From the IMG/VR virus record IMGVR_UViG_3300031578_000257, positions 1 to 28,670 of that record: a DNA stretch of 28,670 bases; one strand, written 5' to 3'. A program made the translations under genes and the position numbers. Below the pieces are notes generated by a model. The model saw nothing but the letters and a program-made list of their open reading frames with translations. It was not told the origin of the DNA and did not search any database. This document shows, in pieces, positions 3,750 through 28,648 of the stretch (position 1 is the stretch's first letter; each line of letters starts with the position of its first letter). This stretch comes from a virus.

Positions 3750-4193
3750 TTATTTTTTAAAAAACCCGTTCTTAGGTTTTTCCTTTTTATCAACCCCCAA
3801 CTTTTCTATAATCTTGTTTGCTTCATCTTCAGCATAAGTTATTACTTCTTCTTCTTTATCAGTGATCTTCCAGTTATTAAGTAAGATACTCATGTGCATA
3901 GTTTCATGCATTATACCTGTAGCTTTTTCTGTAAGAGAATACTTCTTAAAAGTACCTAGGTTAATAAACAAGAACGGTTTGTATGGATCTTTAGCAGTTA
4001 ACTTTTTATCTGCGGGATCATAGTTAGTTAATCCATAAATATAAACTCCATTACCAACAGTCTTATCTACTTCTTCAGCTTGAGCATCTTTTCTATTTAA
4101 CCCGTGCATCTCTTCTACTTTATAGTAATCAAAGACTTCAGTAGCATCATTACCTATAAGTAGAATATACTTACCCATGTCAATTTTCTTCAT
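3750..4193 (-). CDS. HExxH metallopeptidase-like protein
   Basis: A 147-residue protein containing GIMHETMHMSI (about 92-102), an HExxH zinc-metallopeptidase motif in a helix. About 18-24 residues further is an acidic helix (EEEVITYAEDEANKIIEKL) that could supply the third ligand as in gluzincins. It has no signal peptide, so it is probably cytoplasmic in the infected cell, or packaged. The C-terminus is Lys-rich. It lies 22 bases from the phosphoesterase gene. A protease role is inferred from the motif only; the family is not recognised and the substrate is unknown. Confidence 0.6.
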   Translation of the reverse strand: MKKIDMGKYILLIGNDATEVFDYYKVEEMHGLNRKDAQAEEVDKTVGNGVYIYGLTNYDPADKKLTAKDPYKPFLFINLGTFKKYSLTEKATGIMHETMHMSILLNNWKITDKEEEVITYAEDEANKIIEKLGVDKKEKPKNGFFKK

Positions 4194-12446: not shown

Positions 12447-12520
12447 GGTCCCATAGCTCAACTGGATAGAGCACTACCCTTCTAAGGTAGGGGTTATAGG
12501 TTCGACTCCTGTTGGGATCA
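12447..12520 (+). tRNA. tRNA-Arg(UCU)
   Basis: 74 bases with a full cloverleaf. Acceptor GGTCCCA/TGGGATC (7 bp, one G-U); D-arm with TAGCTCAACTGGATAGAGC; anticodon stem CTACC/GGTAG with loop CTTCTAA, giving anticodon TCT; T-arm with the loop TTCGACT; discriminator A. CCA is not encoded. It reads AGA, the dominant Arg codon in the surrounding AT-rich genes, and so probably supports phage translation. Confidence 0.93.
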
Positions 12521-12551
12521 CTATTTATTGTTTAATTTAAAATATGTAATA

Positions 12552-15167: not shown

Positions 15168-15521
15168 ATGATTATAGGTATAGACTTTGATGGTACTTGT
15201 GTTAAACATTCTTATCCTTATGTGGGAGAAGATATTGGTGCAGTACCTGTATTAAAAGAATTAGTAGCAAAAGGACATAGTTTAATATTATGGACAATGC
15301 GAAGTGATGAGACATTAGAAGATGCAATTAATTGGTTCAAAACTAATGAAATTGAATTATATGCTTCACAAAGAAATCCAACACAAGATTCATGGACAAG
15401 TTCTCCTAAAGCATACTGTCAAATTTATATTGATGATGCAGCATTAGGGTGTCCACTAATTAATAATCATGTTGATTGGATCAAAGTAAAAGAATGGCTG
15501 ATTGAAAAAAAAGTATTATGA
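15168..15521 (+). CDS. HAD-superfamily phosphatase
   Basis: A 117-residue protein with all HAD motifs: motif I DFDGT (D6, D8), motif II LWTMR (T43), a Lys near 81 (SPKAYC) and motif IV DDAALG (D89, D90). It has no cap domain, so it should act on a large or exposed phosphate, such as a DNA or RNA end or a small metabolite. Its stop codon overlaps the start of the next helicase gene (ATGA at 15518), which ties it to nucleic-acid metabolism by operon position. Confidence 0.8.
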   Translation: MIIGIDFDGTCVKHSYPYVGEDIGAVPVLKELVAKGHSLILWTMRSDETLEDAINWFKTNEIELYASQRNPTQDSWTSSPKAYCQIYIDDAALGCPLINNHVDWIKVKEWLIEKKVL

Positions 15522-16612
15522 CAAAAGATGATATCCAAGCAGAAGCATTAAAAGCTACAACAGGAAAACATAAATGTAGTTTAGTATTAGGAACTGGTGT
15601 TGGTAAAACCTTAGTTGGTTTAACTCACATTGAGATTAATACTACTCCATTGATGAAATGTCTTGTTGTTGCACCAAAGAAAGCAATTTTTCAATCCTGG
15701 ATTGATGATGCTGAAAAATTTGATAAAAGTGCTTTGATAGATAGAATTGTATTTACAACCTATCTTAGCTTAAATAAACACAATCCTAATGATTATGATG
15801 TTATCTACTTGGATGAAATGCACAGTTTACTTGATTCACATAGACCTTTTCTAGAAGCATATAAAAGTAAGATTCTTGGTTTAACCGGGACTCCTCCTAA
15901 ATATAGAAATTCAGAGAAAGGTCAATTAGTATCAGAGTTCTGTCCAGTAGTATTTACATTTAAAGCAGATGATGCTGTAGAGAATGGAATTTTAAATGAT
16001 TATCAAATCATAGTCCATCAACTAAAGCTAGATGCTTGTAAAGGTTATGTTACAGAAATGAAAGGTAAACCCTTTGTTACTTCTGAACTTGAAAATTATA
16101 ATTATTGGTCTAGAAGATTAGATATGGGATCTGGTCCCGTGCATATTCTTAGAGTAATGAGAATGAAAGCAATTATGGAGTATCCATCTAAAGAGAAGTA
16201 TACTGAATTGCTAATGAAAAACATTACTACTAAATGCATTGTATTTGCTAATACTCAAAAACAAGCAGATAAACTTTGCTCTTATAGCTATCATAGCAAT
16301 AATGCAGCCTCTGAAAATAATTTAGAGATGTTTAAGAATGGAGAGATCATGCAATTATCAACTGTACTTCAGTTGAGTGAAGGTGTGAATATTCCAAATC
16401 TTAGACAAGGCATTATTATGCATGCATATGGAAATGAGCGTAAAGCAAGTCAAAGAATTGGTAGATTACTTAGATTAAACCCTAATGAAAAAGCTATTGT
16501 ACACATCCTATGTTATATGGACACAGTAGACCAAAAATGGGTAAAAGAAGCTCTTGAGAATTTTGATCAGAGTAAAATTGTATGGAAAGACTATGGGGTT
16601 AATTTAGATTAG
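15518..16612 (+). CDS. SF2 DEAD/DEAH-like helicase
   Basis: A 364-residue ATP-dependent helicase. Walker A GTGVGKT (25-31), motif Ia-like VVAPKKA, Walker B LDEMH (D99 on), motif III LTGTPP, and in the second RecA domain CIVFANTQKQAD and QRIGRLLR (Q312 on, motif VI with its Arg finger). It resembles the UvsW/RadD type of SF2 helicases of phages, which remodel branched DNA or act in recombination. It is compact, without extra domains. Overlap with the HAD gene implies coordinated expression. Confidence 0.87.
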   Translation: MTKDDIQAEALKATTGKHKCSLVLGTGVGKTLVGLTHIEINTTPLMKCLVVAPKKAIFQSWIDDAEKFDKSALIDRIVFTTYLSLNKHNPNDYDVIYLDEMHSLLDSHRPFLEAYKSKILGLTGTPPKYRNSEKGQLVSEFCPVVFTFKADDAVENGILNDYQIIVHQLKLDACKGYVTEMKGKPFVTSELENYNYWSRRLDMGSGPVHILRVMRMKAIMEYPSKEKYTELLMKNITTKCIVFANTQKQADKLCSYSYHSNNAASENNLEMFKNGEIMQLSTVLQLSEGVNIPNLRQGIIMHAYGNERKASQRIGRLLRLNPNEKAIVHILCYMDTVDQKWVKEALENFDQSKIVWKDYGVNLD

Positions 16613-16639
16613 CTCCATAATTTTTATTATATTAGTAGT

Positions 16640-16894
16640 ATGGAGAATGTAAAAACACATAAGCTTACTATCTATAATGATGATGTAAATTCTTATGAAT
16701 ACATCATTGCTTGCTTAATTAGATTCTGTAAACATGATCCTATTCAAGCGGAGCAGTGTGCTGTTATAGCACATAGTAATGGTCAATGTGATGTTAGAAT
16801 TAGTAATTTTAATGATATTTATGAAATGCATGCTGATCTAAAAGATATGAATATAAAAACTGAAATTGAAATTTATGAAAGTTCTATGCATTAA
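16640..16894 (+). CDS. ClpS-like N-degron adaptor
   Basis: An 84-residue protein that covers the ClpS core almost end to end. NDD at 13-15 after a strand (HKLTIYNDD), E20-Y21 in the helix that follows (NSYEYIIACLIRF), then a second helix and AHSNGQC with H45, matching the conserved N-degron-binding His of ClpS, and a final strand (KTEIEIY). ClpS binds proteins with destabilising N-terminal residues and delivers them to ClpAP. The position of the bacterial gate Met is Tyr-19 here. It lacks the long N-terminal extension needed for ClpA engagement in E. coli, so it may act as an inhibitor or use a host factor. Confidence 0.8.
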   Translation: MENVKTHKLTIYNDDVNSYEYIIACLIRFCKHDPIQAEQCAVIAHSNGQCDVRISNFNDIYEMHADLKDMNIKTEIEIYESSMH

Positions 16895-17144
16895 TGATAC
16901 TGATAAACCAGTAAAAATCTCAGAAGAAAATTGGATCAAACAAGGCAAAATTTATACTGTCATTGAAGTTAAAAAAATGGGCCTTCAAAAAGGTCAGTTA
17001 GGTTATAAGTTAGAAGAGGTTAGTATTCCTGAGAAATCATTTCCTTATGAATATTATAGTTCTTCAAGATTTGGTTTTCTTATTGAAATTACTGATGAAA
17101 ATCCTGAAATATCTACCAAAGAAGCTGACTTAGATATTTTCTAA
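16875..17144 (+). CDS. small phage protein, K-G-x-x-Y-T-V type
   Basis: An 89-residue protein from ATG 16875. A TTG at 16866 is in frame but the ATG is preferred. It is strand-rich: MKVLCINDTDKP, then IKQGKIYTVIEV (about 21-32), LGYKLEEV (about 42-49) and RFGFLIEI. Small proteins with this order (MKVxCIND, KGKxYTV, GYxLxEV, RF) are common in phages. Function unknown. It overlaps the ClpS-like gene by 20 bases. Confidence 0.7.
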   Translation: MKVLCINDTDKPVKISEENWIKQGKIYTVIEVKKMGLQKGQLGYKLEEVSIPEKSFPYEYYSSSRFGFLIEITDENPEISTKEADLDIF

Positions 17145-17341: not shown

Positions 17342-17782
17342 ATGGAAGATTACACTAAAGAAGATGTACTACAAGCTCTATCTAAAATTACTGTGAACTC
17401 ACGTAAAAGAGTTTTAGTAGATCAAAGAAGTTATCTTATTGGTATTTTGGCATATAGATTTATGTTAAGTGAACATACTATTGCAAAGCTTACAAATATT
17501 AAAAGATATAGTATTAACTATAATAAAAAGATTGCATTGGATTTTCATAAAGATAAATCATATATTCAAAATGTATATGTATATGCCCAAATGTTTCCAT
17601 TTGACTTTAGTGTAATTGAAAGAGGAAAATCTATAAGTGATAGATCTGTAAGAGTAGAACTAGATCTTAATAGAAAATTATTTAATAAACTAAAAGCAGT
17701 TGGAGCTATAAAAGGTCAGTCAGACATAAGAGTTACAATTAAGTTTTTCTTAGAAAAAAGTTTAACAATATGGGACGAATGA
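17342..17782 (+). CDS. HTH-containing DNA-binding protein candidate
   Basis: A 146-residue protein. Residues about 25-65 contain a likely helix-turn-helix: QRSYLIGILAYRF, then LSEHTIAKLTNIKRYSINY, as in the DNA-binding helix regions of DnaA domain IV or of small regulators (IAKL for the recognition helix entry). A basic C-terminal region with alternating strands (RVELDLNRKLF) follows. Whether it is a regulator or an origin-binding protein is not known. It overlaps the next start by 13 bases. Confidence 0.5.
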   Translation: MEDYTKEDVLQALSKITVNSRKRVLVDQRSYLIGILAYRFMLSEHTIAKLTNIKRYSINYNKKIALDFHKDKSYIQNVYVYAQMFPFDFSVIERGKSISDRSVRVELDLNRKLFNKLKAVGAIKGQSDIRVTIKFFLEKSLTIWDE

Positions 17783-26949: not shown

Positions 26950-27344
26950 TGGAAAAAGCTGCTTTTAATAAAGAAGAAACAAGGAATTTACTAAATATGT
27001 TACAATCTCCTGATGAAGAGAATCATATTATAGTTTTTGAAGCATTAAAAAATGCTGATTTATCAAATTATTTTGGTGAATTAATGGTATTATACAAGTT
27101 TTCTAAACTTGGTAGTGACAAATGGACTAAAAACTGTAAAAAAGTTTATAGTCTTATTGAAGAACACACTAATGGAAAAACTCTAACAAGTGCTAACTGT
27201 CTTGGTATCATGACAAACGCTAGATCTACTAAAGAATCTATTGAATTGTTTATGGAATATTTTGTAAGAGATATGACAGGATTTTTAGGGCAAATGGGAT
27301 ATCCCACAGAAAAATTTGAAATTGAAATTAAACTTAAAGACTAA
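26949..27344 (+). CDS. hypothetical protein
   Basis: A 131-residue helical protein (EETRNLLNMLQSPDEENH; ELMVLYKFSKLG) with a final strand (KFEIEIKLKD). Pattern of repeated helices is HEAT-like in spacing, but that is only an impression. It starts and ends with one-base overlaps and precedes the metallopeptidase/VWA gene, so a role with that protein is possible. Confidence 0.55.
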   Translation: MEKAAFNKEETRNLLNMLQSPDEENHIIVFEALKNADLSNYFGELMVLYKFSKLGSDKWTKNCKKVYSLIEEHTNGKTLTSANCLGIMTNARSTKESIELFMEYFVRDMTGFLGQMGYPTEKFEIEIKLKD

Positions 27345-28648
27345 TGGATAAAGTACAAAGCTTAAGTAAAACAAGCAAAGACTTGATGTTAAGAGAGCCC
27401 TATTATGGGTTCTTTCTTCTCATGTTAAATAAATTATGGGACAGTAAAAGAGTTCCTACAGCAGGTGTAAGTAAGAATGGTATTAATTATCAGTTAGCCA
27501 TAAATGAAGATTTTTGGATGAGTCTTACTGAAGACCAAAAACTTGGTTTATTAAAACATGAGTTATTACATATTGCATTTGGACATCTTACTATGTTTTT
27601 TAAATTCACAGATAGAAGACTTGCTAATGTTGCAATGGACATGGAAATCAATCAATATATTGATAGAGACTGGTTGCCAGGTGGTGAATATAGCAAAGAA
27701 GAGTTTGATGAAATAAAAGAAGCTGCTAAAATTGAAATAGCTGCTGCAAGAGAAAGAGATGCTCCTATGGAAGAACTAAAAGCTATTGCTGATAAAGTAC
27801 CTTCTAGAGGCATCATGATTGAAGATTATGATGATGTACAACTTGATACAAAAGCTGGTTGTAGGTATTACTATGACAAGCTTAAGAAACTTCAAGATGA
27901 AAAGAAGCAGAACGGAACCTGTGGTTCTCCATCAATGGATGATTTATTAGATTCTATTGATGAAGGTGATATTCCTGATCATAGTACATGGGAAGAGTTT
28001 GAAAACATGACTGAAGCTGAGCACAAACTAATTGAAAAACAATTGCAGAAAGTTTTAAGTGATGCTAAAGAACAAACTATTAAAAAGCGTGGTACTGTTC
28101 CAGGTGAAATTGAAGGTGTTATTATAATAGAAAACATTGTACCACCTAAATTTGACTGGAGAGGCTTTATTAGAAGATTTACTGGTGTAAGTACAAAAGT
28201 ATTTACTAAGAAGATCAGAAGGAAGGAAAACCGTAGATTTGATGCTAATCCTGGTCTTAAAGTAAAGATGAGACAGCATATGCTTCTTGCTATAGATACT
28301 TCAGGATCTGTAAGTGACAATGAACTTAAAGAGTTTATGTCAGAAATGCATCATATTTATAAATGTGGTGTAGATATTACTATTGTACAGTGTGATACTA
28401 AAATCAATTCTATTGAACCTTACAAGGGTAAATTTGAAATGACTGTAATAGGAAGAGGTGGGACTGAATTTGATCCCGTCCTAAATTATTTTAATGAAAA
28501 CCTAAAGAAATATACTAGCCTGGTGTATTTTACTGATGGTGAATGTTATACAGATGTAAAACCTAAAGGAAATATTCTTTGGGTCTTGTCAGAACAATCA
28601 TCTATGAATGATAGTTTACCGGGCAAAGTAATTAAGTTAGAACTATAA
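27344..28648 (+). CDS. DUF2201-like metallopeptidase/VWA protein
   Basis: 434 residues in two parts. The N-terminal part has a zinc-peptidase motif HELLHIAFGH (72-81) followed by a helical insert. The C-terminal part is a VWA-like domain, with DTSGSVSD (from D318) as the metal-ion site and GRGGTEFDP (about 371-379) supplying the Thr. Proteins of this form usually sit next to a MoxR-type AAA ATPase and are thought to act as ATPase-linked chaperone or activation factors. The next gene starts at 28659, beyond which the window ends, so the partner may be there. Confidence 0.85.
   Translation: MDKVQSLSKTSKDLMLREPYYGFFLLMLNKLWDSKRVPTAGVSKNGINYQLAINEDFWMSLTEDQKLGLLKHELLHIAFGHLTMFFKFTDRRLANVAMDMEINQYIDRDWLPGGEYSKEEFDEIKEAAKIEIAAARERDAPMEELKAIADKVPSRGIMIEDYDDVQLDTKAGCRYYYDKLKKLQDEKKQNGTCGSPSMDDLLDSIDEGDIPDHSTWEEFENMTEAEHKLIEKQLQKVLSDAKEQTIKKRGTVPGEIEGVIIIENIVPPKFDWRGFIRRFTGVSTKVFTKKIRRKENRRFDANPGLKVKMRQHMLLAIDTSGSVSDNELKEFMSEMHHIYKCGVDITIVQCDTKINSIEPYKGKFEMTVIGRGGTEFDPVLNYFNENLKKYTSLVYFTDGECYTDVKPKGNILWVLSEQSSMNDSLPGKVIKLEL

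Follow-up and report, generated by a model that had tools for sequence, protein, structure and literature searches.

The gene at 16,640-16,894 of the window, as we call the whole 28,670-base virus record that we analysed (IMGVR_UViG_3300031578_000257, positions 1 to 28,670), encodes a ClpS-domain protein with the alpha/beta ClpS fold. This assignment is secure. ClpS is the adaptor that chooses which cellular proteins the Clp protease receives. The gene is a core gene of a group of phages, its product has no N-terminal extension, and its 3′ end overlaps the start of a second small gene that accompanies it. A phage-encoded ClpS, with the N-degron contacts present in this copy and the extension missing, had been proposed from the sequence of the window, and these points stand. 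The same proposal named ClpAP as the target, expected the contact histidine to be kept throughout and overlooked the coupled gene, and in these respects it has to be revised. Our favoured reading, for which we consider the case evenly balanced, is that the protein docks on the host unfoldase and binds N-degrons but does not support normal substrate hand-over, and that it does so in concert with its partner.

Table 1. Positions of the features discussed in the text (window coordinates)
Feature	Positions	Strand	Details
Superfamily-2 helicase	15518..16612	+	PHROG 16, Pfam ResIII/Helicase_C; conserved left neighbour of clpS
Terminator-like hairpin with T run	16592..16619	+	12 pairs; between helicase and clpS
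TATATT box	16628..16633	+	just upstream of clpS ATG; invariant in 14 aligned loci
clpS-like gene	16640..16894	+	84 aa, ATG start, open frame; PF02617, predicted fold
Overlap of clpS 3′ end and partner 5′ end	16875..16894	+	20 nt; YESSMH* / MKVLCI
Partner gene	16875..17144	+	89 aa; start is ATG 16875, not TTG at 16866
Conserved gene, function not assigned	17342..17782	+	downstream of the pair
Large protein	8123-9511		matches DUF2828/DUF7788 and a PHROG called RNA-binding protein
tRNA-Arg gene	12447-12521		anticodon TCT
DUF2201 protein	27344-28648		putative metallopeptidase half and VWA-like half

The ClpS domain, its pocket and its N-terminus

First, the Pfam family ClpS (PF02617) matches residues 5-71 of the product with an E-value of 3.9e-13 and 49.4 bits, the curated cut-off being 23. 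Searches of solved structures with the single sequence gave ClpS matches that were weak only. The AlphaFold2 model, computed from an alignment of 47 relatives, has a mean pLDDT of 91.9. With this model, Foldseek retrieved 38 solved ClpS chains at E ≤ 0.001, most of them with TM values of 0.76-0.89, and VIA-align gave Z scores of 13-15 to solved ClpS, against about 10 or less for ribosomal L7/L12, Ubr1 and others. The Pfam score and the two structural comparisons rule out a chance match. The domain is real, but it does not reach the end of the protein as had been claimed: the Pfam match stops at residue 71, and from about residue 78 the protein no longer corresponds to anything in Bacteroidota ClpS.

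In E. coli ClpS, Asn34, Asp35 and His66 contact the amino group of the substrate. Their counterparts in the window ClpS are N13, D14 and H45, with the NDD motif at 13-15, and from sequence and predicted fold we expect this copy to hold N-degrons by means of Asn13, Asp14 and His45. We counted the pocket residues in 57 distinct proteins from loci picked via the neighbouring helicase. Asn is kept in 56/57 and Asp in 57/57, while the His position holds His in 36 proteins, Asp in 20 and Asn in one. Among the 50 proteins of an earlier sample, which had been picked for their likeness to the window ClpS, 48 carry His; the idea that His is almost always kept was a selection bias, exposed by the helicase-selected sample. 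The original prediction was to be given up if profiles failed to match ClpS or if homologues did not conserve NDD and His-45. PF02617 was indeed matched, the Asn and Asp of NDD are kept across the group and all three contacts are present in the window copy, but the histidine is replaced in 21 of the 57 group members.

Fifteen of the proteins with Asp at the His position fall into one fully supported subclade and the remainder are scattered, which points to a few origins of the change. This distribution bears on the possibility, in our view unlikely, that the protein is a ClpC regulator independent of N-degrons, which would dock on ClpC and shift its substrate choice, so that, for instance, phage proteins that are tagged or unfolded would be spared. 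Such a role would suit the Asp-bearing subclade and its few further origins, as well as the ClpS of Vibrio phage 2.275.O, which likewise combines a missing extension with an Asp in place of the His. It also has a precedent in M. tuberculosis, where ClpS inhibits the unfolding of an ssrA-tagged protein by ClpC1 (PMC6274998). However, the two other residues of the amino-group site, Asn and Asp, hardly vary, the window copy has all three contacts, and an Asp in place of His might still bind the amino group. In the ClpS of phage Atu_ph07, both Asn and His are lost; phages may have given up the N-degron site of their ClpS repeatedly.

The absence of the N-terminal extension, the other structural claim of the original prediction, was borne out well beyond the window copy. 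The window ClpS has 12 residues ahead of the NDD Asn, as compared with 33 in E. coli, and of 69 helicase-selected loci that could be scored, 67 have exactly 12; in the sample chosen by ClpS similarity, the extension is missing from all 50 distinct phage proteins. Bacteroidota ClpS typically has 25-28 residues at this place, a conservative figure since it was counted from the last possible Met, a few annotated starts being uncertain. An overlooked upstream start is ruled out for the window, which contains no in-frame ATG upstream of 16640. Several relatives have longer upstream frames, which we rejected as they reach back into the end of the helicase gene and have no start position in common.

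E. coli ClpA takes the extension into its channel and pulls on it to hand over the substrate, and delivery is inhibited when this entry is blocked (PMC9663308); ClpS lacking the extension is no longer degraded by ClpAP (PMC12974527). Since blocked entry of the extension stops delivery by E. coli ClpA (PMC9663308), it is reasonable to infer by analogy that the loss of the extension would lead to inhibition or altered delivery, the requirement for the extension having been established for E. coli ClpA and not for Bacteroidota ClpC.

Phage group, synteny and origin of clpS

The window encodes a DnaB-like helicase, a Sak4-like protein, a primase and a uracil-DNA glycosylase, and a related contig of 117 kb carries terminase, portal, major head protein and DNA polymerase genes. 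The portal of this relative shares 23-29% identity with crAss-like phages and 33% with Leptolyngbya phage Lbo-JY46, and for the DnaB of the window the identity to crAss-like phages is about 30%; from these identities we provisionally class the group as uncultivated phages that are distantly crAss-like. Elsewhere in the window, the PHROGs label HNH endonuclease on the DUF2201 protein looks like a mislabel.

We found relatives of the window ClpS in at least 211 virus contigs. The best 80 cellular relatives all belong to Bacteroidota, at 35-47% identity, and the host phylum was inferred from them to be Bacteroidota. In our tree, a branch with an SH-aLRT of 94 sets the 50 distinct phage ClpS apart; the alignment is short, and the tree gives no firm order for the deeper forks. 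To survey the neighbourhood, we used relatives fetched through the helicase, a procedure that does not select for ClpS and yielded 78 loci with room downstream. In 74 of them clpS immediately follows the helicase, and in the four loci without the pair it is a homologue of the conserved downstream gene that directly follows it. The phage clpS is a core gene of this group and not a stray capture.

Over the first 77 codons, NG86 dN/dS is 0.11-0.41 in eight informative pairs, and 0.20-0.41 for pairs with the nearest phage relatives of the window; thus, ClpS of this group is under purifying selection. We consider it very improbable that clpS is a passenger or degenerate gene without a role in infection. 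Four loci lack the clpS-partner pair altogether, which indicates that it is dispensable in some members and is in favour of a passenger, but these dN/dS values, the retention in 74/78 loci, the invariant Asn and Asp and the coupled partner all speak against it. Recent capture from a host is ruled out by the single phage clade together with the conserved synteny, and we found no plasmid copies. We favour an acquisition long ago from a Bacteroidota-type clpS, which would then have been kept as a core gene.

The arms of the terminator-like hairpin are partly maintained in 14 aligned loci. The TATATT box is a possible promoter element of a near-leaderless transcript, and because of the hairpin and the invariant box, the clpS-partner pair may start its own, almost leaderless, transcript. 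A similar box precedes the gene that ends at 4193 on the minus strand, and both could belong to a promoter class for near-leaderless transcripts.

The partner gene and the host protease

In nearly all of 49 loci, the offset between clpS and its partner is the same, at 20 or 23 nt. The ClpS tail YESxMH is conserved, and in the other frame the same DNA encodes the start of the partner, M-K/Q-V-x-C-I. The last 6-7 residues are thus not ClpS, and the tail can be conserved without a ClpS function since the same DNA starts the next gene; we therefore set aside YESxMH as a functional ClpS motif. The partner is present in 74/74 helicase-selected loci with clpS and in 0/5 of those without it, one of the five ending at that point. 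Being co-present in 74/74 loci and co-absent in 4/4, the two genes behave as a module. Their co-loss is suggestive but is not proof of joint action, because one deletion of overlapping genes removes both; the co-retention is the stronger point.

Searches of Pfam and of PDB sequences with the partner gave no useful match, and PHROGs returned a weak match to an uncharacterised family. Its model has a pLDDT of 80.8 and a disordered stretch of 14 residues at the end, the C-terminal tail having a conserved ending. It matches SH3 barrels weakly, with Z up to 5.7 and an rmsd of 2.3 over 54 residues, and the YccV/HspQ or ClpF fold is not listed among its structure matches. The model is that of a possible SH3-like barrel. 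In one locus (L114), a 239-aa open frame resembling GIY-YIG endonucleases lies directly after clpS, where the partner normally starts; it is possibly a homing endonuclease inserted into the partner.

With regard to the target, ClpAP as originally named found no support in the Bacteroidota genomes that we sampled. Clp_N proteins occur in 8/8 sampled Bacteroidota genomes, but none of the eight has a protein over the ClpA cut-off, and ClpC-ClpP is thus the likelier partner protease, probably in place of ClpAP. The two Bacteroidota genomes studied in full each encode one ClpB and one protein below both the ClpB and the ClpA cut-offs, which we judge from its length and layout to be ClpC. In 11 larger contigs of the group, most of them incomplete, we found no ClpP, no Clp_N unfoldase and no Leu/Phe-transferase, the last being a maker of N-degrons, so that the phage ClpS, if it acts on Clp, must use the machinery of the host. 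The docking contacts of E. coli ClpS on ClpA, Glu79 and Lys84, are not conserved in Bacteroidota ClpS either and cannot serve to judge the docking of the phage protein. In M. tuberculosis, ClpC1 uses a different docking surface for ClpS (PMC6274998).

Our favoured reading can be set out as follows. The phage ClpS, folded like ClpS, would bind N-degrons through its three contacts and dock on the host unfoldase, most likely the ClpC of ClpC-ClpP. It has no unstructured extension of the kind on which the unfoldase pulls during hand-over. It would then fill the adaptor site, hold N-degron proteins without normal delivery, or both, thereby competing with the host ClpS and shielding or rerouting substrates during infection, and it would act jointly with the partner product. 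The fold, the conserved Asn and Asp, the loss of the extension, the lack of Clp genes in the 11 larger contigs, purifying selection, the single clade and the fixed position all support this reading. Against it, the need for the extension is known from E. coli ClpA and Bacteroidota ClpC may dock differently, the hosts are deduced from relatives, and the His-to-Asp subgroup misfits a simple N-degron trap. The partner, furthermore, might supply a pulling handle, in which case the pair would be a delivery system.

This last point leads to a working adaptor, a possible but less probable alternative to which we attach some weight. Here, the phage ClpS would feed selected proteins of the host or the phage into the ClpC-ClpP of the host, and the partner or the short N-terminus would stand in for the extension. 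The N-degron contacts of the window copy and the disordered tail with a conserved ending, in a partner inseparable from clpS, speak for it, and Iyer et al. proposed host ClpAP delivery for other phage ClpS (PMC7824862). However, contact between the partner and ClpS is purely hypothetical, and the extension, kept in the ClpS of three 634-642 kb phages, PA5oct and Phosso, is lost in nearly all members of this group.

More boldly, and as a tentative proposal, the extension-less ClpS and its overlapping SH3-like partner could form an obligate two-gene module that seizes host ClpC-ClpP. It would act as an anti-adaptor or, alternatively, as an adaptor in two parts, with the loose tail of the partner serving as the extension, one subclade having changed or abandoned N-degron recognition with its His-to-Asp replacement. 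A syntenic core gene that is missing exactly the part used for hand-over in E. coli, and that has one partner, leads to the prediction that ClpC-ClpP is blocked or rerouted, for which two small proteins in purified form would suffice as a test. A blocking pair would amount to a natural anti-adaptor of a protease, and a delivering pair would show how ClpS can work without an extension.

Comparison with known ClpS systems

The chromosomal ClpS of Bacteroidota is the same domain, with the identity given above and the same N-degron residues, and a block of Cys30, His32, Gln36, Ala37, Glu38, Gln39 and Cys40 is common to both. It differs by its longer N-terminus and by ending at about the end of the phage core, to which the phage protein adds the tail of 6-7 residues that comes from the gene overlap.

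Among phages, the uncultured LR756502, LR756504 and LR745206 (634-642 kb) have predicted Bacteroidetes hosts (PMC7162821). Their ClpS is 34-42% identical to the window ClpS, but it keeps the extension, with the Asn at about 26-30, and falls outside the window clade. These genomes also carry two or three ClpP genes, with no Clp_N unfoldase detected, and lack the partner gene. The ClpS of proteobacterial jumbo phages (PA5oct, Phosso, Atu_ph07, GAP32, Vibrio 2.275.O) is likewise phage-encoded with host Clp as its proposed target (PMC7824862, PMC6102473), but is distant in sequence; that of PA5oct and Phosso has the extension and that of Atu_ph07 is without the pocket Asn and His, while the Vibrio 2.275.O protein resembles the window group in its missing extension and its His-to-Asp members in its Asp.

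In plastids, ClpS1 acts with a second protein, ClpF, on ClpC (PMC7966870). The likeness lies in the set of components, a ClpS, another small protein and a ClpC unfoldase, and is an analogy only; ClpF has UVR and YccV domains, whereas the phage partner has weak, generic SH3 matches with no YccV/HspQ among those listed.

Gp708 of Atu_ph07 was annotated as ClpS in 2018 (PMC6102473), jumbo-phage ClpS was proposed by Iyer et al. in 2021 to bring targets to host ClpAP (PMC7824862), and further phage records and structure models carry the ClpS name. In the open-access literature, which excludes most subscription papers, we found no experiment on any phage ClpS. Altogether, phage-encoded ClpS was already known; our analysis adds that the extension is lost across a whole group, that an overlapping partner gene goes inseparably with clpS, and that a subclade has Asp in place of the His.
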